A stretch of DNA of 40,271 bases from the NCBI GenBank assembly GCA_947041225.1, contig CAMRDM010000012.1:1-40271 (forward strand). Direction: 5' to 3'. Source of the DNA: an uncultured Deferribacteraceae bacterium. GTDB lineage: Bacteria; Chrysiogenota; Deferribacteres; Deferribacterales; Mucispirillaceae. Positions 1 to 40,271 of the stretch are shown in pieces. Position 1 is the stretch's first letter, and every line of letters begins with the position of its first letter. Position numbers and translations under genes: made by a program. The notes under the pieces were generated by a model that ran no database searches, was not told where the DNA came from, and saw nothing but the letters and a program-made list of their open reading frames with translations.

Positions 1-252
1 TTATATGATGCAGGTGCTACAGCTGGAACAGGTGGTATTGATAAAGCCGTAGGTAAAAATGATACAAATGGCATGGTTACATTAACAGGAAGTAATGCAC
101 TTGATATTACAGAGTTTAAAGATACAACTACTGTTTCTACTAATTTTACAGGTTGGGATTTTACTCAAGATACTGGTATTTGGATAATGGGTGCTGATTA
201 TCCTACACTTATCAATTCGCCAACAGTTACACCACGCGTGGTTACACCGTAA
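1..252 (+). CDS. GLUG-repeat surface protein, C-terminal fragment (5' end outside window)
   Basis: Frame 1 is open from the first base to TAA at 250-252 and gives the last 83 residues of a protein of the same family as the next gene. It starts inside the conserved YWLYD region and carries the family cap: a DITEFKDTT stretch, GWDFTQDTGIWIMG and YPTL. The tail is longer than in most family members and ends PTVTPRVVTP. The first 55 or so bases are identical to 1801-1855 in the neighbouring gene, so the two ends are recent copies or have been homogenised. The N-terminus, signal peptide and repeats lie upstream of the window. Family membership is secure; the function (surface-exposed repeat protein) is inferred from the complete paralogues. 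Confidence 0.85.
   Translation, partial: LYDAGATAGTGGIDKAVGKNDTNGMVTLTGSNALDITEFKDTTTVSTNFTGWDFTQDTGIWIMGADYPTLINSPTVTPRVVTP
231..242. repeat. 12 bp palindrome ACCACGCGTGGT, copy 1
   Basis: A perfect palindrome inside the last codons of the partial GLUG gene (encoding PRVV). An identical copy is at 4474-4485, after the DUF2310-like gene. The bases after both copies are also related (GTGGTTAC and an AAGTAA-rich trailer). Confidence 0.7.
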
Positions 253-330
253 CCGTAAAGTATTGAGTGTAAAAAAGTAAGCAAAGTATATAGATGTAAT
301 ATGAAAGTATTACGCTAGAAATAAATAATT

Positions 331-360
331 ACCCCATAGTTTTAACGCTATGGGGTTTTA
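331..360 (+). terminator. Hairpin terminator, loop orientation B
   Basis: A 9 bp perfect stem (ACCCCATAG with CTATGGGGT), extendable by a G-U pair, with a TTTTAACG-type loop, followed by TTTTATATT. It lies about 80 bases after the stop of the partial GLUG gene. It belongs to a family of seven related hairpins in the window. Confidence 0.75.
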
Positions 361-428
361 TATTATATTGATGAAAAAATAATATATGTAATCTAACATA
401 TATTTATTATTTAACACTATTAATAATG

Positions 429-457
429 TTGACAATCATCTGTATAGCAATTAGACT
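429..457 (+). promoter_or_regulatory. Promoter of the first complete GLUG gene
   Basis: TTGACA at 429-434, exactly 17 bases, then TAGACT at 452-457. It gives a 5' UTR of about 65 bases before the ATG at 528. The same -35/17/-10 layout precedes four other GLUG genes. The -35 box overlaps the first in-frame ATG (426), which argues against that ATG as the start. Confidence 0.65.
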
Positions 458-527
458 TAAGTTAATATGTATAGATATCAAATTATTAGTTATGAACATA
501 AAAGATCGTAATTTTTGGAGAGAAAAT

Positions 528-2018
528 ATGTTTAAAAAGTTGAAAAGTTTATTAGTTATTTCGATGTTAGTTTTTGTTGGTGGATGCTACGATTTTAGAG
601 ATTCAGGAGGTGGAAGTGGAGGTTCTAATCTCAATCCAGATATTCCTGAAACGGAGATAATTCCTGATGTTAGTGGTGTTTATAAGATATATAACATGGG
701 TCATCTTGTATGGGTAGCAAATAAATCAGTAACAGATAATTTTGCTGGAAAAATTGTAAGATTTATGGCTGACATAGATATGGAGAGTAAGCAATTTACA
801 GGTATACAAAAGTTTGCAGGCAGATTAGAGGGTAATGATAAAACTATAAGTAATTTAAAAATCAGTCAAAACTTAGGTCCTTCTATCGGCTTAATTAATG
901 TATTAGAAGATGGTGGACATATAGAAAATCTCACAATAGTAAGTGGTACGATTACAGGTGATACTTATGTAGGCGTATTCGTAGGTTCAGCTAGTGGAAC
1001 AACAACTATTACTGGTGTTACAAATAATGTTGATATTAATGGTATTACTTATATCGGCGGTATTGTCGGATGTAATAAGGGTCATCTAATAATTAGTAAT
1101 AGTGTTAACACGGGTACAGTAACAGCAGAAGAACCATATCACGGAACATTAGAACCATCAAGAATTGGTGGGCTTGTTGGTGGAACGGGTTCTAAGAGTA
1201 GTTCAACCTTAACAATTAAGAATAGTTCAAACAGTGGCGATATAGTAGGTAATGATAATCATCATTCATTCTCAGGTATCGGTGGACTTATTGGAAGTAG
1301 CAATGACAGTAGTTTAATAATTATAAATAGTTCAAACAGTGGAACGCTTAGTGGTCAAGAGAGAATAGGTGGTCTTGTTGGGAGTAGTCAAGGAAGTGAT
1401 TTAACTATCAGTAATAGTTTAAACAGCGGTAATATATCTAGTGATAATCAACTAGGAGGTATTGTTGGAGTTTATACTCACGGTACATTGCATATAGATA
1501 ATAGTTCAAACATCGGAAACATCATAGCAGAAGGTAGTTTGTTAGGTGGTTTTGTTGGAAATGGTTATAAGAGCGTAATAAGGGTTGAGAATAGTTTTAA
1601 TAGTGGAGATTTATCTGGTTCTGGAAATATAGGTGGAGTGATTGGACTCTGTGAGAAAAATACTACAACTTTAATAAATATCCATAGCTACTCTAAAAGT
1701 ATAAAAGTATTAGATGAGTCTACGATAGGTGCTTCTGAGATAGGTGGTATTATCGGTCGTTTGAAGGAAGGAACAGTTACAGCAACAAATAGTTATTGGT
1801 TATATGATGCAGGTGCTACAGCTGGAACAGGTGGTATTGATAAAGCCGTAGGTACAGGTACTTTAACAGGAACATCTGCACTTGATATTGCAGAGTTTAA
1901 AGATACAACTAATATTGGTACTAATTTCGTTGGTTGGGATTTTACAGCAGACACTGGTATTTGGATAATGGGTGCTAATTATCCAACCCTTAGAAATCTA
2001 CCAGTGGTTACGCCGTAA
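528..2018 (+). CDS. GLUG-repeat surface lipoprotein
   Basis: A 496-residue lipoprotein. I chose ATG 528 over the in-frame ATG at 426 because it has a GGAGAG ribosome site seven bases upstream, lies downstream of the promoter and gives a clean signal peptide ending in the lipobox VGGC (Cys20). A Gly/Ser linker follows, then the entry domain (VYKIYNMGHLVWVA, DMESKQFTGI, FAGRLEGN), then about eight or nine GLUG-type repeats (GGLVG... NSSNSG... pattern) and the cap (SYWLYD, GWDF, IWIMG, YPTLR). GLUG motifs are known from bacterial surface proteins and IgA-protease-like proteins; their exact role is unsettled. It lacks the FTIAS-like module found in the next gene. Likely location is the outer membrane surface. 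Promoter and hairpin suggest a single-gene unit. Confidence 0.85.
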   Translation: MFKKLKSLLVISMLVFVGGCYDFRDSGGGSGGSNLNPDIPETEIIPDVSGVYKIYNMGHLVWVANKSVTDNFAGKIVRFMADIDMESKQFTGIQKFAGRLEGNDKTISNLKISQNLGPSIGLINVLEDGGHIENLTIVSGTITGDTYVGVFVGSASGTTTITGVTNNVDINGITYIGGIVGCNKGHLIISNSVNTGTVTAEEPYHGTLEPSRIGGLVGGTGSKSSSTLTIKNSSNSGDIVGNDNHHSFSGIGGLIGSSNDSSLIIINSSNSGTLSGQERIGGLVGSSQGSDLTISNSLNSGNISSDNQLGGIVGVYTHGTLHIDNSSNIGNIIAEGSLLGGFVGNGYKSVIRVENSFNSGDLSGSGNIGGVIGLCEKNTTTLINIHSYSKSIKVLDESTIGASEIGGIIGRLKEGTVTATNSYWLYDAGATAGTGGIDKAVGTGTLTGTSALDIAEFKDTTNIGTNFVGWDFTADTGIWIMGANYPTLRNLPVVTP

Positions 2019-2048
2019 TTAATAAGTAATAAAATCACATAAAATAAA

Positions 2049-2080
2049 ACCCTTACGGCGTAAAACTGTAGGGGTATTTT
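2049..2080 (+). terminator. Hairpin terminator, loop orientation A
   Basis: The stem ACCCTTAC pairs with GTAGGGGT (one G-U pair) around a GGCGTAAAACT loop, followed by ATTTTATATT. It lies 31 bases after the stop of the first complete GLUG gene. Same family as the hairpins at 4584, 23365 and 35050. Confidence 0.75.
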
Positions 2081-2155
2081 ATATTGGACTTAATTAATAA
2101 TTAAAGTAAAAACTAATCAGAGAGTTAATTGAACCTTACACTATATTTAATAATG

Positions 2156-2184
2156 TTGACAACTACCTCCTTACTATTTACAAT
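2156..2184 (+). promoter_or_regulatory. Promoter of the second complete GLUG gene
   Basis: TTGACA at 2156-2161, a 17-base spacer and TACAAT at 2179-2184. The bases before it (TAATAATG) match those before the promoter at 429. The 45 bases before both start codons are also alike, so promoter and leader were duplicated with the gene. Confidence 0.7.
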
Positions 2185-2252
2185 ATAAATGTTATATATA
2201 GATATATTTATTAGTTAGAAACATAAAAAACAGTAATTCTTAGAGAGGAAAT

Positions 2253-3683
2253 ATGTTAAATCAGTTTAAAAAGTTATTATTAGGCTCTATATTAATATTA
2301 ATGGTAGTTGTTCTTGGTGCGTGTTCAGAAGAGGAGTCAGTTTTTTTGCCTAATTTCTATTTAGGTAAAGATTTTACGATTGCAAGTTTAGGTGATGGTA
2401 AAACGTTTACACAAACTTATTATGGGAAATTAAAATATTCAGCAACCGAGATAAATCCTATAGGTAAAAAAGCAATTGATTTTACAACTCAACTTCAATC
2501 TGATATCAAAACTAAACTAGAGAAAATGAATACAGGCTTAACTGTTGATGTAGAAGAAGCAGTTATATTAAGTGGAGAGGTAGAGGGAAATCAAACGTTA
2601 GTTGTTACAGTTGAAGTAACAATCACAGATAGGACTTCTCCAGATAAGACACAAACAGAAAGTTATGTTTTCACAATCCATTTTGGCACAGGGTTAGATA
2701 AATGGGACGGCATAACAGCAACAAAAATAACTCCAACTGGTAATGTTTATGATATACATAACGGTTCACACCTTGCATGGATAGCAGAACAATCTGAGAA
2801 CAATAATTTTGCAGACAAAACAGTAAGGTTCATGCAAGATGTTGATATGGATAATAAAACATTCACAGGTATCGGAGAATTTGCAGGTAGATTAGAGGGT
2901 AATCATAAGACAATCTATGGTTTAATGATTGATAAACAGGGAGCAAGGAACGTAGGTTTAGTTTCTGTTTTAGGTATAGAGAGTTCGGTTGGTGGTTCTA
3001 TAGATAATCTTACAATCGCAAGCGGACAGATCAAAGGGAAAAGTTTTATTGGTGCATTTGTAGGGCGTGTTGCAACAGGTGCAACAGTTACGATCAAAGG
3101 CGTTACAAATCATGCAACAGTAACAGGAACAGGTAATTATGTTGGTGGGCTTGTTGGAGATAGTAATGGTACTCTAACAATAGATAACAGTTCAAACACA
3201 GGCAACGTAAATGGTTTTCAAAATGTCGGAGGGTTTATGGGATCGAGTGGCCCTTATGCTTTAACAGTTACAGATAGTTCAAACAGAGGTAACATAATAA
3301 GTAGAGCTAACCCAATTGGTGGGCTTGTTGGAGATAGTGCTGGAAATGTAACTCTTACGAATGTTTATAGTTACGCTAAAAGTTTAACCGGTAAGATAAG
3401 TAGGGGTGGTATCGTAGGTCTGATTAGTAAGCAGAGTAGTACTACATTTACAATGAATAATGTTTATTGGTTGTATGATACAGCAGATTCAGTAGTAGGT
3501 ATTGAAAGCTCATATGGAACTGCTGGGTATGAAACAGGCGTTCCAGTGCTTAATAATTCTAATGCACTTGATATTGCAGAGTTTAAAGATACAACTAATA
3601 TTGGTACTAATTTTATAGGTTGGGATTTTACTCAAGATACTGGTATTTGGATAATGGGTACAGAGTATCCATTGCTAAGATAA
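2253..3683 (+). CDS. GLUG-repeat surface lipoprotein with one N-terminal FTIAS-like module
   Basis: A 476-residue lipoprotein with an AGAGGA ribosome site before ATG 2253 and lipobox LGAC (Cys24). Residues about 35-145 form a module that starts YLGKDFTIASLGDGK and ends YVFTIHFG; the same module occurs once in the gene at 30740 and twice in the gene at 27529. The entry domain (KWDG, HLAWIAEQ, VRFMQDVDMDNK, FAGRLEGNHK, GVTNHATV) follows, then four or five GLUG repeats and the cap. The protein ends right after YPLLR, short of the usual NLPV... tail; the bases after the stop still read LQAVAL and a second stop, so the stop may be a recent nonsense change. No hairpin separates it from the gene at 3745, so the two may share a transcript. 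Confidence 0.85.
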   Translation: MLNQFKKLLLGSILILMVVVLGACSEEESVFLPNFYLGKDFTIASLGDGKTFTQTYYGKLKYSATEINPIGKKAIDFTTQLQSDIKTKLEKMNTGLTVDVEEAVILSGEVEGNQTLVVTVEVTITDRTSPDKTQTESYVFTIHFGTGLDKWDGITATKITPTGNVYDIHNGSHLAWIAEQSENNNFADKTVRFMQDVDMDNKTFTGIGEFAGRLEGNHKTIYGLMIDKQGARNVGLVSVLGIESSVGGSIDNLTIASGQIKGKSFIGAFVGRVATGATVTIKGVTNHATVTGTGNYVGGLVGDSNGTLTIDNSSNTGNVNGFQNVGGFMGSSGPYALTVTDSSNRGNIISRANPIGGLVGDSAGNVTLTNVYSYAKSLTGKISRGGIVGLISKQSSTTFTMNNVYWLYDTADSVVGIESSYGTAGYETGVPVLNNSNALDIAEFKDTTNIGTNFIGWDFTQDTGIWIMGTEYPLLR

Positions 3684-21006: not shown

Positions 21007-23235
21007 ATGGTTACACAATTGAAGAACTTACTACTTGGCTTGCTATCGGTTTTAATGGTTTTGGTTATCGTTGGAGATGCTTACTCTAAGACGATAAAGG
21101 TTGTCAAATGGGATGGTAAAACTGTGACAAAGATAAGTCCAACGGGTAATATTTTTATCATAAAGAGTGCAAGTGATCTTGCATGGATAGCACTACCTAC
21201 GACATTAGAATCAAACAATAATTTTGATAATAAAACTCTTAGAATTGTAAATAATATAGATATGAATAATAAACCATTTACAGGTATAAAGTTATTTAAA
21301 GGTAAGCTAGATGGTAATCATAAAAAGATATATGGTATAAATATAGATAAGTCTAAAGTTGATAATGTAGGTTTAATTTCTACATTAGGTGCTGGTGGAT
21401 CAATAGAGAATTTAACGATCGCAAAAGGTAGCATAATCAAGGGTAAAGGTGCTGTTGGTGCATTTGTGGGGAGTGTTGCAAATGGTGCGACAGTTACGAT
21501 AAAAGGCGTTACAAATCATGCAACAGTAACAGGAGCAGGAGCAGGTGATAATATCGGTGGGTTTATTGGATTGAGTGGTGATAACTCAACATTAACAATA
21601 GATAACAGTTCAAACACAGGCAGAGTAGAAGGTACAGGAGTAAAAACAGTAACAATACTCGCCGAAGAAATTGGCGAAACGAATTTTGACATGAATGTTG
21701 GAATGGATAATATCGGTGGTTTAGTTGGTCATAGTTCTAGTGGCTCATCTACAACAATCATGAATAGTTCAAATACAGGCGATGTAACAGGAACAGGAGA
21801 TTATATAGGTGGTCTTATTGGTAATAGTGCTACTAATTCGACTTTAGCAATTAATAGTAGTTCAAACAAAGGTTTAGTTACAGGAACGGGAACAAAAACT
21901 AAAACTTATTATGCTGGAGAGGAATACGAAAGCGTTATTGGAATGAATTGTATCGGTGGTTTAGTTGGTTATAGTTCTAATGGTTCATCTACAAAAATTA
22001 CTAGTAGTTCAAACACAGGTGCAGTTACAGGTTCTGCTTATCTAGGTGGTTTAATTGGAAGAAGTGATGCTGAGTCAATTTTAACGATTACTAGTAGTTC
22101 AAACACAGGCGATTTATCTGGTGAAGTTGATGTTGGTGGACTTGTTGGAGATAGTTCAACTTTAAGAATAGATAACGGTTCAAACACAGGCACAGTAACA
22201 GGTACAGGCAGTTATGTTGGAGGTCTTGTTGGAGATAATAGTGGAAGTTTAACGATCACCAACAGTTTAAATACAGGAGATGTAATAGGTGAAGGTCTTA
22301 GTATTGGTGGCCTTTTAGGAGGAAGTTGGTATAGTGCTTTAACAATAGATAATAGTTCAAACAGAGGTGACGTTACAGGAAAAGGAGGAACACGTGATGT
22401 AGGTGGTCTTGTTGGAAAGAGTTATTATAATACATTCACAATTAATAATAGTTCAAACACAGGTGCAGTATCAGGAAGAAATAAAGTTGGTGGTTTAGTT
22501 GGAGATAGCGATACTAGTTCACCATTAACGATAGATAATAGTTCAAACACAGGCAGAGTATCAGGAGTAGATAATGTAGGTGGACTTGTTGGCTGGGGTT
22601 ATAATAATTATATAGCGATTAGTAGTAGTTTAAATACAGGTGCAGTATTAGGAACAAATGATGTAGGTGGACTTATAGGATATAGTTATTATAGTGATTT
22701 AACAATTAATAATAGTTCAAACACAGGCAGAGTATCAGGTGCAGATAAAGTTGGTGGTTTTGTTGGAGAGAGTAATACAAGTTTAACTGTAGCAATATAT
22801 AGTAGTTCAAATACAGGCGATTTATCGGGTAAAGTTTTTGTTGGTGGAGTTCTAGGATATGGTTCTGGTTATGGTTCTGGTGCTATAACTCTTTTAAATG
22901 TTCACAGCTATGCAAAAACTGTAACAGGAACAGCAGTAGACACAGGTGAAATTTCCGTTGGTGGTATCGTAGGTTATATTTCAAATCGTATTACTGTTAC
23001 GGCGCATAATGTTTATTGGTTGCATGATAGAGTAGAGGGTATTGAAAAAGCAGTAGGCATAGGCGTGGACAAATTCACTAACACAAGTAATAAGTCTAAA
23101 GCACTTAATAAGAGAAAGTTTGCAAAACGAGGCAGTTTCAAAGGTTGGGATTTTGATACAGTTTGGGAGATTTTAGCAAACGGCAAATATCCAACACTTA
23201 GAAATCTACCAGTTGCACCAGTTACAACTAAGTAA
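21007..23235 (+). CDS. GLUG-repeat exported protein without lipobox
   Basis: 742 residues. TAGGAG lies before ATG 21007. The signal peptide (MVTQLKNLLLGLLSVLMVLV...) is like that of the lipoprotein paralogues, but where they have LGAC this one has IVGDAYSK, so there is no lipid-anchor cysteine; cleavage by signal peptidase I is likely. The entry domain (KWDG, DLAWIAL, NIDMNNKPFTGI, GVTNHATV) comes directly after. About 14-15 GLUG units follow, the longest array in the window. Two repeats (near residues 205-240 and 295-330) carry related insertions of about 20 residues. The cap reads VYWLHD, GWDFDTVWEIL, YPTLR and PVAPVTTK. Probably a secreted or differently anchored member of the family. Own promoter and terminator. 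Confidence 0.85.
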   Translation: MVTQLKNLLLGLLSVLMVLVIVGDAYSKTIKVVKWDGKTVTKISPTGNIFIIKSASDLAWIALPTTLESNNNFDNKTLRIVNNIDMNNKPFTGIKLFKGKLDGNHKKIYGINIDKSKVDNVGLISTLGAGGSIENLTIAKGSIIKGKGAVGAFVGSVANGATVTIKGVTNHATVTGAGAGDNIGGFIGLSGDNSTLTIDNSSNTGRVEGTGVKTVTILAEEIGETNFDMNVGMDNIGGLVGHSSSGSSTTIMNSSNTGDVTGTGDYIGGLIGNSATNSTLAINSSSNKGLVTGTGTKTKTYYAGEEYESVIGMNCIGGLVGYSSNGSSTKITSSSNTGAVTGSAYLGGLIGRSDAESILTITSSSNTGDLSGEVDVGGLVGDSSTLRIDNGSNTGTVTGTGSYVGGLVGDNSGSLTITNSLNTGDVIGEGLSIGGLLGGSWYSALTIDNSSNRGDVTGKGGTRDVGGLVGKSYYNTFTINNSSNTGAVSGRNKVGGLVGDSDTSSPLTIDNSSNTGRVSGVDNVGGLVGWGYNNYIAISSSLNTGAVLGTNDVGGLIGYSYYSDLTINNSSNTGRVSGADKVGGFVGESNTSLTVAIYSSSNTGDLSGKVFVGGVLGYGSGYGSGAITLLNVHSYAKTVTGTAVDTGEISVGGIVGYISNRITVTAHNVYWLHDRVEGIEKAVGIGVDKFTNTSNKSKALNKRKFAKRGSFKGWDFDTVWEILANGKYPTLRNLPVAPVTTK

Positions 23236-26877: not shown

Positions 26878-27528
26878 AATGCGTCCTCCTAAGTTGACTT
26901 GCATTTACTATATTCGATAACAGTTATAAACATTTTTGCCGTACTAATTTTTAACCTGTTGCTATACTGTATCTATTTTATTTTAAAACTAATAATATTT
27001 ATCTCTAAAATTGTCTAAAAAATAGTAAAATAAATCTCTATCTATCACATAAGTGAGAAATTATTTCCTACTAAAAACTAATATATTAATATAAATATCT
27101 ATATATTAGAGATAAATCTGTTACCATTGATAATTAAAGCTTTTTAAAATCATGAGCAAGAGTATACGCCCCATTAATACTAGAAATGGTTACTGTAGCT
27201 AGACTTCGCTACATTTGTGTTTAGTATACAAGCAAATATTATGCCTAAAGGGATAAAACTGCTCTAAAAGAATTTATAGTTCAAGTAGATGATTATCTAC
27301 GACTTATTATTCGTAATCTGTAAACTACGACTAATTACTTATTAATATTCATTAAATAACCAATCCTTATCGCTATGATACTCTTCTATATCAACATATT
27401 GTGGTTACGATTAATTGTTGATAATTCATATTTATTACAATATAATGCTATTCAAATATATTTATGTTAAACTATATCATTTTTAAAATATATTGATATT
27501 AAATTGTAATTATGGGGGATAATTGTTT
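26878..27528. other. Divergent intergenic region
   Basis: About 650 AT-rich bases between the exported-protein gene and the next GLUG gene. It contains a short hairpin (TGTAGC and GCTACA near 27190-27212) and the GLUG promoter at 27419-27447. I see no other structure and no coding potential. Confidence 0.5.
27419..27447 (+). promoter_or_regulatory. Promoter of the fourth complete GLUG gene
   Basis: TTGATA at 27419-27424, 17 bases, perfect TATAAT at 27442-27447, with a leader of about 75 bases. Best -10 box of the five GLUG promoters. Confidence 0.7.
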
Positions 27529-30441
27529 ATGAATAAAGTATTACCATTCTTGGTGATGCTATCAATAATCGTAATATGTCAAGGGTGTTTGGATAATGTA
27601 GATAGAACTGCTTCGACTTATTTTTATCTTAGTGATGATTTTACTATTGCAAGTGTAGATGGTAAATATTTTCAAAGTACAGATGGCTCGTTAAATTATA
27701 AAATTGGTAGAGTAGAGATTAATGATGTAGATGCAGAAAAGAAGGAAGTTCTCACTATAACGCATGAGTTAGAGAGTGCTATAAAGACTGAGTTGACTAA
27801 AATGAGTATTGATACGAATACCAATTATATTTTAGGAGATGCGATAACAAAAAGTGGTGATGTTGGGTATGGAGAGAAGTTAATTATTGAGTTTGGTATA
27901 GAGATTGTAGAGACGGTGAGTAGCCGTACGATAGATGGTATATACTCTTTTGTAATAAGGTTTGATAACGATAGTACACCTTCTTTAGATGAAGAGCTTA
28001 CTTTTTATCTGTGTGAGGTTGTTACTATTGCGGGTATTGGCGATAAAAGTTTCATAAGTGATAGCACTTATTTAAATTATACGGTTGAAGGTGTTGATTT
28101 GCTAGGTATAGGTAGCGACACGATATCGGATCAATTAGAACATTTACTGAGAACTATGCTTGATAGAAAGAGTATCCGTGCCAATATCGACTATACTTTA
28201 GGAGAGCCTATATCAAGTGGAAGTATAGCGACTGGTGAGAGTTTAGTTATCAAGTTTGATATAGATATAAGATCTTTGGATAGTGATAAAGTAATATCGG
28301 ATACATATTCATTTACGATATTGTTTAACGATAAAGTTGGTTCTTGGAGTGGATACGATAAGATTGAGCCTGATAGAGATATTGCGGATAATTATCTTAT
28401 AAAAGTTCCTGCGAATTTAGCATGGTTAGCAGATCAGGAAGAGATTAATACGAACGTTCTATTTTTAAATAATATAGATATGGGTGGCTATCCTTTTACG
28501 GGTATAAAAAGGTTTAGTGGTATTTTTGATGGTAACGGTAAGAGTATATCGAATATAAATATAGATAGTGGTACAAGTTTTGATAGATCATCTGGGTTAA
28601 TACAGAGTATCACAGGCGAGAGTGTTATAAAGAATTTAACACTTAAAGGTGGTACGGTTCGTGGCGGTAGATATGTAGGAAGTTTTGTAGGAACGGTTGG
28701 AGTAGTAGATGATATTGTTAGAACTATTGATATCAATCGAGACAACTTCACGATAGATAATTTAACAAGTGATTTAGCGTTAGTTTTAGATGATTTAGAT
28801 AGTGCTTCGGAGTATGATGTTGCTATAGGTGGTTTTGTTGCGATGATTAATGATCGTACGGTTACGATTAGGAACTCTATTTATCGAGGAGATATATTAT
28901 CTAGTTCAAATAAGGAGTCAACAATTGGTGGTTTTATAGGTAAGATATCCAACTCTGATATCACGATGAAGAAGTTGACAAACTACAGTAATATATCTGT
29001 TGCGAGCGATATTGAGGGTATAAATATTATCGGTGGAATTCTTGGAGAGTATGTAATTACGGGAATGGATAGTTTAATAGTTTATGGATCAGAGTTAGTC
29101 AATAATGGAGATTTATCAAGCAATAGTAATAGCGAGGGTATAGTAGGTGGAATTATCGGAGTGAACAATTCTAATGATAACAGTGAGAGTACTATAAGTA
29201 TAGTATCTAGTGTAAATACAGGAAAGCTAAGTGGCGATAATATATTAGGTGGCGTGATAGGATTTAGTCGTAATGCTAAGTTAGAGGTAATAGATACGCA
29301 TAATAGTGGTTTGATCGAGGGTATTATAGATATAGACAGATTAGTTATTCTTGGTTCTGGAGGCGGAATAATAGGATCAAATGCTGGTATAGAGCCAGTA
29401 AGTATTTTGAACGTATCAAACAGTGGATCAGTACAGGGCAGTTTTATGTATAGTGGTGGTATAATAGGTAATAACAGTAGTTTAGGAACAACAGATATAA
29501 TTGGTTGTTCTAATACTGGAAATATATCAGGTAATATGTATACAGGTGGCATTATAGGAGAGAACAGTATTGATTTATCTATGACGTTGATAAACAGTTA
29601 TAACATAGGTACGATAAGTAGTAGTAACTCTAGTTATGTATATCTAGGTGGTTTAATTGGGTCTAATACTGCGTCAGACACTAAATTAAGTGGATCGTAT
29701 AATAGAGGCAACTTAACGATTAGCGAGAAGATTAATATTACTCCACTAGAGGTTTTCGTAGGAGGATTAATAGGTAGAAGTCTTAAAACTACGAGTATAG
29801 AGAAAGTGTATAATTCAGGCGATATAGATATAGTTATTTCCCCTTCTGCCGTTTCAGTTGGAGGTATAATAGGTTTCGGTTCGGCTTTAACAGTGAGTGA
29901 AAGCTATAATACGGGAGATATTTTTAGTGATAATGATATCAATGTACAATCAACAACGAGTGCAGAAAATTATGTAGGAGGCATTGTTGGATCGATTGTC
30001 AATAGTCGCACAGCAGATCGCAATTATTTGGTTAAGATAAGCGATAGTTATAATGTAGGAGATATATGGAGCAAAGGAGTTGCAGGCGGTATAATAGGCA
30101 ATAATTATTACGAGGGTAGTAATAGTAATCGGCTAGAAATTTCACACTCATTTAATTACGGCACGGTTACGGGAGGTATATTATCAGGAATGATTATAGG
30201 AAGTATATATGAGTTAATCACGACGGCGATATATACAGATAATTACTGGTACTCTCTAAGCGTTTCAGAGAGCGACAATCTTCAAATTGGAGGTGCGAGA
30301 CTTGATTTTGATGAGTTTCGTATTGCAGATAATTTTGAAGATTGGAAAGTAAATATTGATGGCAGTAAGTGGGAGATTTTAGAGGGCATAAATTATCCAA
30401 CTCTTGTGAATAATAAAGAGATAGACACACAGATTAATTAG
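27529..30441 (+). CDS. Large, divergent GLUG-repeat lipoprotein with two FTIAS-like modules
   Basis: 970 residues from ATG 27529, which I prefer to the in-frame TTG at 27523 because GGGGG at 27514-27518 is then ten bases away. The signal peptide ends in the lipobox-like ICQGC (Cys20), with unusual Cys and Gln at -3 and -2. Two tandem copies of the N-terminal module follow: one from FYLSDDFTIASVDGK to YSFVIRF and one from FYLCEVVTIAGIGDK to YSFTILF. Then come the entry domain (NLAWLADQ, NNIDMGGYPFTGI), about 15 GLUG-like units more diverged than in the paralogues (GGIIGNNSS, GGIVGSIVN, SYNTGDI) and the cap (DNYWYS, FEDWKV, WEIL, YPTL). It is the oldest-looking member and lacks the near-identical repeat blocks of the others. 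Own promoter and hairpin. Confidence 0.85.
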   Translation: MNKVLPFLVMLSIIVICQGCLDNVDRTASTYFYLSDDFTIASVDGKYFQSTDGSLNYKIGRVEINDVDAEKKEVLTITHELESAIKTELTKMSIDTNTNYILGDAITKSGDVGYGEKLIIEFGIEIVETVSSRTIDGIYSFVIRFDNDSTPSLDEELTFYLCEVVTIAGIGDKSFISDSTYLNYTVEGVDLLGIGSDTISDQLEHLLRTMLDRKSIRANIDYTLGEPISSGSIATGESLVIKFDIDIRSLDSDKVISDTYSFTILFNDKVGSWSGYDKIEPDRDIADNYLIKVPANLAWLADQEEINTNVLFLNNIDMGGYPFTGIKRFSGIFDGNGKSISNINIDSGTSFDRSSGLIQSITGESVIKNLTLKGGTVRGGRYVGSFVGTVGVVDDIVRTIDINRDNFTIDNLTSDLALVLDDLDSASEYDVAIGGFVAMINDRTVTIRNSIYRGDILSSSNKESTIGGFIGKISNSDITMKKLTNYSNISVASDIEGINIIGGILGEYVITGMDSLIVYGSELVNNGDLSSNSNSEGIVGGIIGVNNSNDNSESTISIVSSVNTGKLSGDNILGGVIGFSRNAKLEVIDTHNSGLIEGIIDIDRLVILGSGGGIIGSNAGIEPVSILNVSNSGSVQGSFMYSGGIIGNNSSLGTTDIIGCSNTGNISGNMYTGGIIGENSIDLSMTLINSYNIGTISSSNSSYVYLGGLIGSNTASDTKLSGSYNRGNLTISEKINITPLEVFVGGLIGRSLKTTSIEKVYNSGDIDIVISPSAVSVGGIIGFGSALTVSESYNTGDIFSDNDINVQSTTSAENYVGGIVGSIVNSRTADRNYLVKISDSYNVGDIWSKGVAGGIIGNNYYEGSNSNRLEISHSFNYGTVTGGILSGMIIGSIYELITTAIYTDNYWYSLSVSESDNLQIGGARLDFDEFRIADNFEDWKVNIDGSKWEILEGINYPTLVNNKEIDTQIN

Positions 30442-30485
30442 ATAGGTAATAACTTATAAAATTATTATAAAATCATATAAAAAAC

Positions 30486-30516
30486 ACCCCTATAGTTTTA
30501 ACGCTGTAGGGGGTTA
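30486..30516 (+). terminator. Hairpin terminator, loop orientation B with A-type flank
   Basis: ACCCCTATAG pairs with CTGTAGGGGGT; the loop is the B orientation, but the left flank (ATCATATAAAAAAC) is that of the A-type copies. Only a weak T run follows (GTTAATTTAT). Confidence 0.65.
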
Positions 30517-30545
30517 ATTTATGCTTAAAATCAGATGTAATACTA

Positions 30546-30574
30546 TTGACAAATATCTTATTAAGTATTAGATT
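30546..30574 (+). promoter_or_regulatory. Promoter of the fifth and sixth complete GLUG genes
   Basis: TTGACA at 30546-30551, 17 bases, TAGATT at 30569-30574. The leader is about 160 bases, twice that of the other GLUG genes. The next gene (33382) has no promoter or terminator before it, so both genes probably depend on this one. Confidence 0.65.
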
Positions 30575-30732
30575 ATTGAGATCTGTATATGTTTTATCAT
30601 AATGTATATGTATTACCATAATGTATGTGTATTACTATATACTAATTGTTTTTATTTTCCGTCCTTATTCATAGTTTTTATTTATCTGTTCTTGCTTTGT
30701 TTCATAGTAGATAAAAAAATAGCTTAGGAGTT

Positions 30733-30780
30733 AGATCACATGCTTAAAAGAATTCAGATCACATGCTTAAAAGAATTCAG
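30733..30780 (+). repeat. 23 bp tandem duplication over the start codon of a GLUG gene
   Basis: Two perfect copies, 30733-30755 and 30756-30778, then the first two bases (AG) of a third. Each copy contains an ATG (30740 and 30763). As 23 is not a multiple of three, the two ATGs are in different frames. Only the first ATG leads into the signal peptide and lipobox. Confidence 0.9.
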
Positions 30781-33313
30781 CAATTCATTCACAGTTCAAT
30801 TAAGAAAGGTTTTATTACTTTCAACGTTAATGTTAATGACGTTACTATTAGGTGCGTGTGCTGATGTTGGCAACGGTGGTGTAACTCCAGATTATTCGCC
30901 TAGTTTTGATTTAGGTGCAACATTCACAATTGCAAGTTTAGGCGATGGCAAAAACTTTATACAAGATGAAGATAATACTTCAAAATATTCTATTGAAGAT
31001 GTAAGTTCAGTTGATAAAAATAACGAAGCGATAGTAGACGAATTAAAAACAAAAATAAAAACTACATTAGAGACAAATATAACAGGCACAGCGGTAACTT
31101 TTGACGATGTAGGTATAACAGGCGATGCAGTTGCTGATGAGACATTAACTGTAACGGTTGCAACAACAATCACAGAAACAGCAACTGCTAATACAGCAAC
31201 AAACAGTTATATTTTCACAATCGGTTTTGCTAAAGAGCTTGTAAAATGGGACGGCACAGTAATTGAGATCACACCAACAACAGACGGAGTTTATGAAATC
31301 TATAACGGTTCACACCTTGCATGGATAGCACAACAAACAAGACTAGCTGGTACTCCTGATAATTTCACAACTAAAACAGTTAGGTTCATGAACTCAGTTG
31401 ATATGGATAATAAAACTGATGATACAGGTGCAACAGTTTTCACAGGTATGGGAGAATTTGCAGGCAGATTAGAGGGTAACCATAAGATGATCTACGGTTT
31501 AAATATTGATAAATCAGCTGAGAATAACGTTGGTTTAATTTCTATATTAGGTTATGGTGGCTATATAGATAATCTCACAATTGCAAGTGGACAGGTTAAA
31601 GGGGAATTATTTGTTAGTGCATTTGTAGGACAGGTTGCAGATCTTGCGGTAGTTACGATCAAAGGCGTTACAAATCATGCAACAGTAGAAGGAAGTAATT
31701 TTGTTGGTGCATTTGTAGGACAGACTAAACATCGTGCAACAGTTACGATCATAGGCGTTACAAATCATGCAACAGTAAAAGGAGATAGAAATACTGTCGG
31801 TGGGCTTGTTGGAGAGAGTGCTGGTGATTCTCTAACAATATCTAATAGTTCAAACAGAGGCAATATAACAGGAAAAGCTCTTGTCGGTGGGCTTGTTGGA
31901 GAGAGTGTTAAGGGAGATAGTTTTAGTAGTATTTTAACAATAGATAACAGTTCAAACACAGGCAGTGTGAGCGGTGTTGAGAGCGTCGGTGGGCTTGTTG
32001 GAAAGAGTACTAAGGGTACTTTAACAATAGCTAACAGTTCAAACACAGGCAATGTGAGCGGTAGAGGTGTTGTCGGTGGGCTTGTCGGAGAGAGTAATTC
32101 TTTTGGTTATACTTTAACAATAGATAACAGTTCAAACATCGGCACAGTAACAGGCACAGCAACAGGCACAGCAACAGGAGCAAATAATAAGGTAGGTGGG
32201 CTTGTTGGATCGAGTGGGGATAGTTCAACTCTAACAATATCTAATAGTTCAAACAGCAAAGATGTAACAGGAGCAAATAATGAGGTAGGTGGGCTTGTTG
32301 GATCGACTGGGAATTATTCAGATATAACAATAACAATAGATAATAGTTCAAACACAGGCAGTGTGAGCGGTGTTGAGAGCGTCGGTGGGCTTGTTGGATC
32401 GAGTGGGGATAGTTCAACTCTAACAATATCTAGTAGTTCAAACAGCAAAGATGTAACAGGTAAAGGTTATGTCGGTGGGCTTGTTGGATATAGTGGGCTT
32501 GGTGTTGGAGATAGTTATAAAGGTTCAACAACTTTAACAATATCTAAGAGTTCAAACACAGGCACTGTAAATGGCACAGGTGATAATATAGGTGGGCTTG
32601 TTGGATATAGTAAGGGTACAGGTTCAATTTTAACAATATCTAAGAGTTCAAACATCGGCACAGTAACAGGAACAGGTAATAAGATAGGTGGACTTGTTGG
32701 AGAGAGTGATACTGGTTCAACTTTAACAATAGATAATAGTTCAAACAGCAAAGATGTAACAGGCACAGGTAATACAACAGGTAATAAGATAGGTGGACTT
32801 GTTGGAGCGAGTGCTGGTAAGTTAACAACAAGTAATAGTTCAAACAGTGGCAACATTAAAGGACATACAGATATCGGTGGCTTGTATGGGTACATCACAT
32901 TGCATACTGATGAGGATCGTACTGTTAATAGTTCAAACAGTGGTAATGTTAATGGTGAAAATTCTGTAGGTGGAATTATTGGAGGTAGTTATTCAGAGCA
33001 GTATCTAGCAAATGTTTATAGCTATGCGAAAAGTATAACTTCTGCTACTTCTCAACGCGGTGGAATAGTAGGACGTCATGAACGAGGACCTACTTTTACA
33101 GTACAAAGTGTTTATTGGTTGTATGATACTACAAACGGAACAGTAGGTATTGAAGCCTATGTTGGTGGTGGTAATATTATCGTCGTTACTGGATCTAAGT
33201 TTGTAAAACGCAATATTACAGAGTTCAAAAGTAAAGATAGTTTCATTGATTGGGATTTTGAGGATGTTTGGGAGATTTTAGAGGACGTTGAATATCCAAC
33301 ACTTAGAAAGTAA
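30740..33313 (+). CDS. GLUG-repeat lipoprotein with possible phase-variable start
   Basis: 857 residues from ATG 30740, nine bases after AGGAG. The signal peptide is unusually long (40 residues to Cys40 in LLGAC) because its first part is encoded by the 23 bp duplication. One FTIAS-like module follows (FDLGATFTIASLGDGK to YIFTIGF), then the entry domain (KWDG, HLAWIAQQ, NSVDMDNK, FAGRLEGNHK) with two GVTNHATV units, about 13-14 GLUG repeats and the cap (VYWLYD, WDFEDVWEIL, YPTLR). Several repeats are near-identical at DNA level (for example around 31950, 32345 and 34060), and 32798-33044 is almost the same as 34402-34648 in the next gene. Probably a surface protein; co-transcribed with the gene at 33382. 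Confidence 0.85.
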   Translation: MLKRIQITCLKEFSNSFTVQLRKVLLLSTLMLMTLLLGACADVGNGGVTPDYSPSFDLGATFTIASLGDGKNFIQDEDNTSKYSIEDVSSVDKNNEAIVDELKTKIKTTLETNITGTAVTFDDVGITGDAVADETLTVTVATTITETATANTATNSYIFTIGFAKELVKWDGTVIEITPTTDGVYEIYNGSHLAWIAQQTRLAGTPDNFTTKTVRFMNSVDMDNKTDDTGATVFTGMGEFAGRLEGNHKMIYGLNIDKSAENNVGLISILGYGGYIDNLTIASGQVKGELFVSAFVGQVADLAVVTIKGVTNHATVEGSNFVGAFVGQTKHRATVTIIGVTNHATVKGDRNTVGGLVGESAGDSLTISNSSNRGNITGKALVGGLVGESVKGDSFSSILTIDNSSNTGSVSGVESVGGLVGKSTKGTLTIANSSNTGNVSGRGVVGGLVGESNSFGYTLTIDNSSNIGTVTGTATGTATGANNKVGGLVGSSGDSSTLTISNSSNSKDVTGANNEVGGLVGSTGNYSDITITIDNSSNTGSVSGVESVGGLVGSSGDSSTLTISSSSNSKDVTGKGYVGGLVGYSGLGVGDSYKGSTTLTISKSSNTGTVNGTGDNIGGLVGYSKGTGSILTISKSSNIGTVTGTGNKIGGLVGESDTGSTLTIDNSSNSKDVTGTGNTTGNKIGGLVGASAGKLTTSNSSNSGNIKGHTDIGGLYGYITLHTDEDRTVNSSNSGNVNGENSVGGIIGGSYSEQYLANVYSYAKSITSATSQRGGIVGRHERGPTFTVQSVYWLYDTTNGTVGIEAYVGGGNIIVVTGSKFVKRNITEFKSKDSFIDWDFEDVWEILEDVEYPTLRK
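32798..33044 (+). repeat. 247 bp block shared with the next GLUG gene (34402-34648)
   Basis: The two copies are offset by exactly 1604 bases. By eye I count about four differences in 247 bases. The block codes the last GLUG repeats before the cap, from GLVGASAGKLTT to SYAKSITS. Confidence 0.9.
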
Positions 33314-33381
33314 CAAGTTGTAACATATAAAGAGCAGAAATAAATAGTATTCAGATAATTAAAGTTTAGGAGTGATAAACA

Positions 33382-34938
33382 ATGCTTACTCAATTTAAAA
33401 ATATATTCACAAAAGTACTCACAAGTTCAATATTGGTTTTAATGTTGCTATTTATCTCTGCGTGTGCAGATGATAGTAATAGCAATAATGGAGGCACTAC
33501 TCCAGACATTCCAGATATTCCAGATATTCCAGATACTGGAATTCTGCCAGTATGGGACGGCGAAACGATCACAGAGATTATTCCAGTTAATAATGTTTAT
33601 GAGATATCGAATCCTAATCAACTTGCATGGATAGTAGATATATCTTATAAAGCTGACTACGATAATTTCACAGATAAAACTATTAAGTTCACAGATAATA
33701 TGAGTATGGATAACCACTCAATGCAGGGTATAAAATCATTTGCAGGCAGATTAGAGGGAAATAATAAACAGATACATAATATAAAATTAAGTAATGTTTC
33801 TCCTGATGAAACAGGTTTAATTAACCTATTGTTGGATGGTGGCTATATAGATAATCTCACAATTTCAACAGGGCTAATCAAAGGGCGATATGGTGTTGGT
33901 GCATTTGTAGGAGAAGTTGAGAAAAATGCAACAGTTACGATCAAAGGTGTTAAAAATAATGCAACAGTAGAAGGAACTAATTATGTTGGTGGGCTTGTTG
34001 GATCTATTGGGCGTTTGGGAGTTAGTGGTATGTATCCAACTCTAATAATAGATAACAGTTCAAACACAGGCAGTGTGAGCGGTGTTGAGAGCGTTGGTGG
34101 ACTTGTTGGAGAGAGTGGTACTGATTCAACTCTAACAATATCTAATAGTTCAAACATCGGCATAGTAAAAGGAACAGGAACAAGCCTATTTATCGGTGGG
34201 CTTGTTGGATCTAATAAGGGTACTTTAACAATAACTAATAGTTCAAACAGCAAAAATGTAACAGGAACAGGTAATAGAATAGGTGGGCTTGTTGGATATA
34301 GTAAGGGTACTTTAACAATAACTAATAGTTCAAACATCGGCACGGTAACAGGCACAGTAACAGGAATAGGTAATAATACAACAGGTAATAGGGTAGGTGG
34401 GCTTGTTGGAGCGAGTGCTGGTAAGTTAACAACAAATAATAGTTCAAACAGTGGCAACATTAAAGGACATACAGATATCGGTGGCTTGTATGGGTACATC
34501 ACATTGCATACTGATGAGGATCGTACTGTTAATAGTTCAAACAGTGGTAATGTTAATGGTGAAAATTCTGTAGGTGGAATTATTGGAGGTAGTTATTCAG
34601 ATCAGTATCTAGACAATGTTTATAGCTATGCGAAAAGTATAACTTCTGAAAATGGCGGTCAACTCGGTGGAATAGTAGGACGTCATCAAACAGGACCTAC
34701 TTTTAAAGTACAAAGTGTTTATTGGTTGCACGATGCTACAGTTGGCACTGAGAAAGTTGGTGGTGGTGGTGTGATAGCCGAGACTGGACATGGCTTTTCA
34801 AAACTCACGATTACAGAGTTTGCAGATAAGAACGCCACAGGCACTAATTTTCTAGGTTGGGATTTTGATACAGTTTGGGAGATTTTAACAAACAGTTTAT
34901 ATCCAACGCTTAGAAAGCAACCAGTTACAACTAAGTAA
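33382..34938 (+). CDS. GLUG-repeat lipoprotein
   Basis: 518 residues from ATG 33382, nine bases after AGGAG. Signal peptide with lipobox ISAC (Cys28). After the lipid anchor there is a (PDI)n linker, TPDIPDIPDIPDTG, encoded by a 9-base tandem repeat (about 33504-33537) that could change length in frame. There is no FTIAS-like module. The entry domain (VWDG, QLAWIVD, NMSMDNHSMQGI, FAGRLEGN), about 7-8 GLUG repeats and the cap (VYWLHD, GWDFDTVWEIL, YPTLR, PVTTK) follow. Much of its repeat region and its 3' trailer are close copies of the genes at 30740 and 21007. It probably shares the 30740 transcript and ends at the hairpin at 35050. Confidence 0.85.
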   Translation: MLTQFKNIFTKVLTSSILVLMLLFISACADDSNSNNGGTTPDIPDIPDIPDTGILPVWDGETITEIIPVNNVYEISNPNQLAWIVDISYKADYDNFTDKTIKFTDNMSMDNHSMQGIKSFAGRLEGNNKQIHNIKLSNVSPDETGLINLLLDGGYIDNLTISTGLIKGRYGVGAFVGEVEKNATVTIKGVKNNATVEGTNYVGGLVGSIGRLGVSGMYPTLIIDNSSNTGSVSGVESVGGLVGESGTDSTLTISNSSNIGIVKGTGTSLFIGGLVGSNKGTLTITNSSNSKNVTGTGNRIGGLVGYSKGTLTITNSSNIGTVTGTVTGIGNNTTGNRVGGLVGASAGKLTTNNSSNSGNIKGHTDIGGLYGYITLHTDEDRTVNSSNSGNVNGENSVGGIIGGSYSDQYLDNVYSYAKSITSENGGQLGGIVGRHQTGPTFKVQSVYWLHDATVGTEKVGGGGVIAETGHGFSKLTITEFADKNATGTNFLGWDFDTVWEILTNSLYPTLRKQPVTTK

Positions 34939-35049: not shown

Positions 35050-35082
35050 ACCCCTACGGCGTAAAAACTGTAGGGGTTTTAT
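35050..35082 (+). terminator. Hairpin terminator, loop orientation A
   Basis: ACCCCTAC with GTAGGGGT around GGCGTAAAAACT, then TTTTATTTAT; near-identical to 23365 including the left flank. Confidence 0.8.
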
Positions 35083-39937: not shown

Positions 39938-39957
39938 ATTACTCCTCTCCCTCAAGG

Positions 39958-40271
39958 CGAGTTCGGTGCAAGTTGTCGAGTTGGTGCAAGTTGTCGAGTT
40001 GGTGCAAGTTGTGGCGAGTTGGGTGCATAGTTGTCGAGTTCGGTGCATAGTTGTCGAGTTCTATGTATAGTCGAGTTCTGTGTATAGTTGTCGAGTTCGG
40101 TGCAAGTTGTCGAGTTCGGTGCAAGTTGTCGAGTTCGGTGCAAGTTGTCGAGTTGGGTGCAAGTTGTCGAGTTCGGTGCATAGTTGTCGAGTTCGGTGCA
40201 AGTTGTCGAGTTCGGTGCATAGTTGTCGAGTTCGGTGCAAGTTGTCGAGTTCGGTGCATAGTTGTCGAGTT
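39958..40271 (+). repeat. Minisatellite of 17-20 bp units after fliG, running off the window
   Basis: Sixteen complete units beginning CGAGTT plus the start of a seventeenth. Most are CGAGTTCGGTGCAAGTTGT (19 bases) or the 20-base form with CATAGTTGT; these two forms alternate over the last six units. Units 2-4, 6, 7 and 11 carry changes. The array begins 20 bases after the fliG stop and is clearly richer in G+C than its surroundings. A minus-strand frame reads through it as a low-complexity peptide, which I take as a by-product of the repeat. Confidence 0.95.

Follow-up and report, generated by a model that had tools for sequence, protein, structure and literature searches.

A perfect 23-bp tandem duplication lies head-to-tail over the start codon of a lipoprotein gene in a 40,271-nucleotide stretch of DNA from an uncultured Deferribacteraceae bacterium, referred to here as the window. 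The original prediction, made from this DNA, held that gain or loss of one unit may switch the gene on and off. We ask here whether the duplication is such a switch or has another origin. The window belongs to a draft genome of Deferribacteraceae type (G000; 2.19 Mb in 162 contigs), the near relatives of which are uncultured Deferribacteraceae metagenome bins; a contig scan found two sister bins only. The coordinates of the features are listed in Table 1.

The duplication over the start codon was confirmed. TRF called positions 30733 to 30780 with a period of 23, 2.1 copies, and 100% match (unit, AGATCACATGCTTAAAAGAATTC). The array is 48 bp long (2 × 23 + 2; 2.09 copies), holds exactly two copies, and shares only the 2-bp AG at its edges. 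Neither the window nor the draft genome contains the unit anywhere else, viral contigs and plasmids searched for copies or alleles of it yielded none beyond the locus, and the number of matches expected in shuffled sequence is zero. The duplication is real, and chance is ruled out. The two copies do not differ from each other, consistent with a recent event; homogenization could also explain it.

Table 1. Features at and around the duplicated start codon (positions in the window)
Feature	Position	Strand	Basis or remark
Terminator-like hairpin of the upstream paralog	30487..30512	+	Prediction
Candidate sigma-70 promoter, TTGACA-17-TAGATT	30546..30574	+	Consensus match only
19-bp imperfect repeat, ×2.9, in the 5′ leader	30584..30639	+	TRF, alignment; about one copy in homologs
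Shine-Dalgarno sequence, AGGAG	30726..30730	+	9 nt before ATG 30740; kept in three homologs
23-bp tandem duplication	30733-30755, 30756-30778, plus 2 bp (AG)	+	TRF, sequence
Usable start codon ATG, copy 1	30740..30742	+	ORF list, in silico copy-number reading
A4 run, copy 1	30746..30749	+	Site of extra base relative to homologs (alignment), which read ATGATTA[CG]AGAATTC
Second ATG, copy 2	30763..30765	+	Out of lipoprotein frame; no good Shine-Dalgarno; own reading is a 33-aa dead end
GLUG-repeat lipoprotein gene, 857 aa	30740..33313	+	ORF, Pfam Glug PF07581
Downstream GLUG lipoprotein paralog, 518 aa	33382..34938	+	ORF, Pfam

Because the duplicated unit does not include the Shine-Dalgarno sequence, the first ATG alone is preceded by one, and translation probably starts there. 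The protein has a 39-residue signal peptide followed by a lipobox (LGAC; Cys 40). It exceeds the curated cut-off of the GLUG-motif family (PF07581) with a match of 24.2 bits against 20.5 (E value, 4e-05); a search of NCBIfam found no family.

The reading frame was computed in silico for zero to five copies of the unit. Two copies give the full 857-aa lipoprotein, with the first ATG in frame with the signal peptide and lipobox as originally predicted. One copy gives 33 aa and then a stop, in agreement with a predicted stop about 34 codons on. With a single unit, the lipoprotein frame is interrupted by a TAG immediately upstream, and its only start candidates are an ATC and two ATGs within the hydrophobic core, which supports the prediction that no other suitable start exists. 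A stop in the third frame of the unit limits three, four, and five copies to 17 aa each, and with zero copies the sole remaining ATG sits within the hydrophobic core. From one to five copies, protein is made at two copies only; three to five copies are dead, so that the computed range contains a single ON state. Deletion of one unit from the window allele would kill the gene.

Three homologous genes were found in two congeneric genomes, two in G001 (contig C11, at 34 kb and 57 kb) and one in G002 (contig C157). The G002 contig is collinear with the window across 4.4 kb, including the upstream paralog, and its gene is therefore taken as the ortholog by position. The window gene and all three homologs have the leader, AGGAG, and initial codons in common, and alignment of the four starts showed that AGGAG and GAATTCAGCAAT are conserved around the site. 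Each of the three homologs has one copy only and reads in frame (MI[TR]EFSNQF..QLKKVLL), with the N-terminal stretches MITEFSNQFILQLKKVLL, MITEFSNQFTLQLKKVLL, and MIREFSNQFTLQLKKVLL. The counterpart in the window, LKEFSNSFTVQLRKVLL, is reached via the second copy only.

The comparison also revealed one extra base per unit: the window reads ATGCTTAAAAGAATTC (16 nt) where the homologs have ATGATTACAGAATTC, ATGATTA[CG]AGAATTC (15 nt). The extra base is present in both window copies, and the A4 run in which it falls recurs in copy 2 at positions 30769 to 30772. The net insertion relative to the homologs is 24 nt, or eight codons, and occurs only in the window among the four aligned starts. Placement of the offsetting base as an extra G in the downstream AAAGG was rejected, all homologs sharing AAAGGTTTTATTA. 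The one-copy homologs already have a 31-residue signal peptide (Cys 32). The predicted 40-residue signal peptide is one residue shorter, with Cys at 40, and the duplication, proposed as the cause of its length, accounts for eight residues only.

Taken together, gain of one base followed by the 23-bp duplication would constitute a compensated frameshift, or intragenic suppressor, and this is the explanation that we consider probable. Intragenic frameshift suppression involves two indels that sum to a multiple of three and restore the downstream frame, with a short stretch altered. The window shares the two indels and their sum; it differs in that the start codon lies within the second indel, a 23-bp tandem duplication. 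In this scenario, the GLUG-repeat surface lipoprotein gene would have gained one base just past its start codon, which would have put it out of frame and turned it off. A 23-bp segment with the start codon would then have been tandemly duplicated, regaining the frame and turning the gene on again, with initiation at the first ATG from a Shine-Dalgarno sequence outside the unit. The resulting 24 nt would add eight codons to the n-region of the signal peptide. Slippage or recombination that removed one unit would turn the gene off again, a by-product of the repair instead of a dedicated switch.

Several findings are consistent with a compensated frameshift. The indels relative to functional homologs sum in the alignment to a number divisible by three, and the extra base with one copy alone breaks the gene. 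The dN/dS of the first ~200 codons (Nei-Gojobori) is 0.42 relative to the G002 gene and 0.61 and 0.42 relative to the two G001 genes; the N-terminal part of the window gene contains no internal stops and aligns in frame with the homologs. These ratios and the intact frame show that constraint has acted on the gene downstream of the indels during most of its history. The extra base occurs in each of the two window copies, so that its gain before the duplication is the simplest order; the reverse, in which a 22-bp duplication came first and each copy then gained a base, is possible and needs more events. From these comparisons we infer both the order of events and selection for the repair. Two points weigh against the compensated frameshift: an insertion divisible by three arises without selection at a 1-in-3 chance, and the homolog set consists of three genes from two other species, among which the intermediate with one copy and the extra base is absent.

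The structure could instead be an assembly or sequencing artifact, with the second copy or the extra A absent from living cells. The assembly is a draft in 162 contigs, its close named relatives are metagenome bins, and at least one more of its contigs, C111, matches a different species at 97.5% identity over 2.9 kb, so that binning may be imperfect. Two independent errors would be needed, however, and the +1 and +23 changes jointly bring back an ORF of 857 codons with a proper Shine-Dalgarno sequence and signal peptide, whereas a random +23 would restore it in at most one of three cases. We consider an artifact very unlikely. It is more improbable still that the duplication was kept for a changed level of expression or export, through a longer n-region or with the extra ATG as a decoy. 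A second ATG and eight extra residues do fall within the initiation region, but the Shine-Dalgarno/ATG pair and the hydrophobic core are unchanged, the second ATG has no good Shine-Dalgarno sequence, and the paralogs inspected show nothing comparable.

The main alternative to a compensated frameshift is a phase-variable switch, as originally predicted, in which gain or loss of one unit toggles the lipoprotein within a population. The copy-number consequences computed in silico are those predicted, and both the frame arithmetic and the death of the window allele on loss of one unit stood. The repeat is also perfect, head-to-tail, and slippage-prone, surface lipoproteins are typical phase-variable genes, and tandem-repeat copy number is phase variable in other bacteria, as in Mycobacterium tuberculosis (PMC12817950). 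Two copies did not hold up as the ON state of the family, however, the homologs being ON at one copy, nor did the ON state recur at three to five copies. Two copies are moreover the minimum for a repeat, and no other credible start in the 1.16-Mb sample described below bears such a repeat. We consider this switch unlikely. Frameshift repair explains the structure better, because the extra base in each window unit is offset by the duplication.

Phase-variable simple sequence repeat (SSR) and VNTR contingency loci resemble the window in having a non-triplet tandem unit at the 5′ end of a surface protein gene, and here too the unit (23 bp) is not divisible by three and its copy number sets the frame. 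The window differs in having two units, with protein made at two copies only, and in having repeat-free homologs; further units, up to the five computed, do not regain the ON state, and no repeat of varying copy number was seen in the two sister species, all three homologs there being single copy. Many units, recurring ON states, and conservation or variation among relatives mark an evolved contingency locus, and this locus shows none of them. Slippage can delete a unit of a perfect 23-bp tandem repeat, and reversible switching is therefore possible. A two-state switch, in which one-copy (OFF) and two-copy (ON) alleles are kept in one population by frequent loss and re-formation, strikes us as quite unlikely. 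If the two alleles do coexist, they would form a simple surface-protein switch that could be counted directly in metagenome reads.

Microhomology-mediated tandem duplications (MTDs), such as the reversible ssp1 MTDs of yeast (reviewed in PMC13207564), are likewise short segments in exactly two head-to-tail copies that change the frame and are reversible in principle, and the window duplication has AG at its edges. The microhomology at the window is 2 bp only. The ssp1 MTDs break the gene and their reversion restores it, whereas the window duplication itself restores the gene. The locus is a clear instance of a gene that one base broke and that a tandem duplication, by supplying the frame, apparently repaired, and it shows that a non-triplet repeat over a start codon should be compared with homologs before it is called a switch.

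Perfect tandem repeats of 15 to 150 bp were surveyed in 1.16 of the 2.19 Mb of the genome. The survey yielded 47, most of them intergenic or triplet multiples within ORFs, and the duplication studied here is the sole one over a credible start codon. Two other rows touch a mechanical ORF start. The first, a 17-bp repeat in L138 (11293 to 11327), was rejected as intergenic, since the aminotransferase gene that follows it has its credible start further on, at ATG 11381. The second, at the right end of the window, overlaps only a mechanical ORF (39939 to 40259) built of the repeat itself. The start regions of GLUG paralogs that were inspected contain no comparable repeat. Tandem duplication is a common mutation in this genome, and start-codon duplication is no recurring theme. 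The right-end array (39958 to 40271) is a composite of 19- and 20-bp units with a 39-bp period and 8.2 copies, which runs to the contig end; units bearing GTCGAGTTG are found in L150 too.

Upstream of the homologs, TTGACAAATAT is conserved in the candidate sigma-70 promoter region. The imperfect leader repeat, which follows the candidate promoter, could change the length of the leader or the spacing. The leader RNA has no Rfam match, and a fold of the alignment showed no covariation. The terminator-like hairpin, CCCCTAYAG...CTGTAGGGG, recurs in near-identical form between GLUG genes in three genomes, including a second place in the window (35050 to 35077) and paralog leaders. Downstream, 68 nt separate the stop of the 857-aa gene from the paralog, a gap in which no promoter or terminator is predicted; the two genes are possibly cotranscribed. 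Because of this gap, polarity on the paralog upon loss of the 857-aa frame, as raised in the original prediction, is plausible.

The GLUG-repeat family is large and consists mostly of lipoprotein genes with in-frame internal repeats of 87 to 96 bp. Members lie at 1 to 3683, 21007 to 23235, and 27523 to 34938 in the window and on contigs C111, C3, C9, C74, C86, and C36 of the same genome. The 3′ parts of the 857-aa gene and its downstream paralog are 79% identical, a substrate for recombination between paralogs. The identity noted above for contig C111 covers positions 3119 to 5966 of L126 and is to L131 (G003:C2), at the DNA level and between two species; it reflects either a recent transfer or a misbinned contig. 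Finally, a G001 homolog (L119, 4070 to 4120) contains an in-frame (GGCAAC)n run that encodes GNGNGN shortly past the lipobox. G002 has a shorter run and the window almost none, which makes this a length-variable linker.
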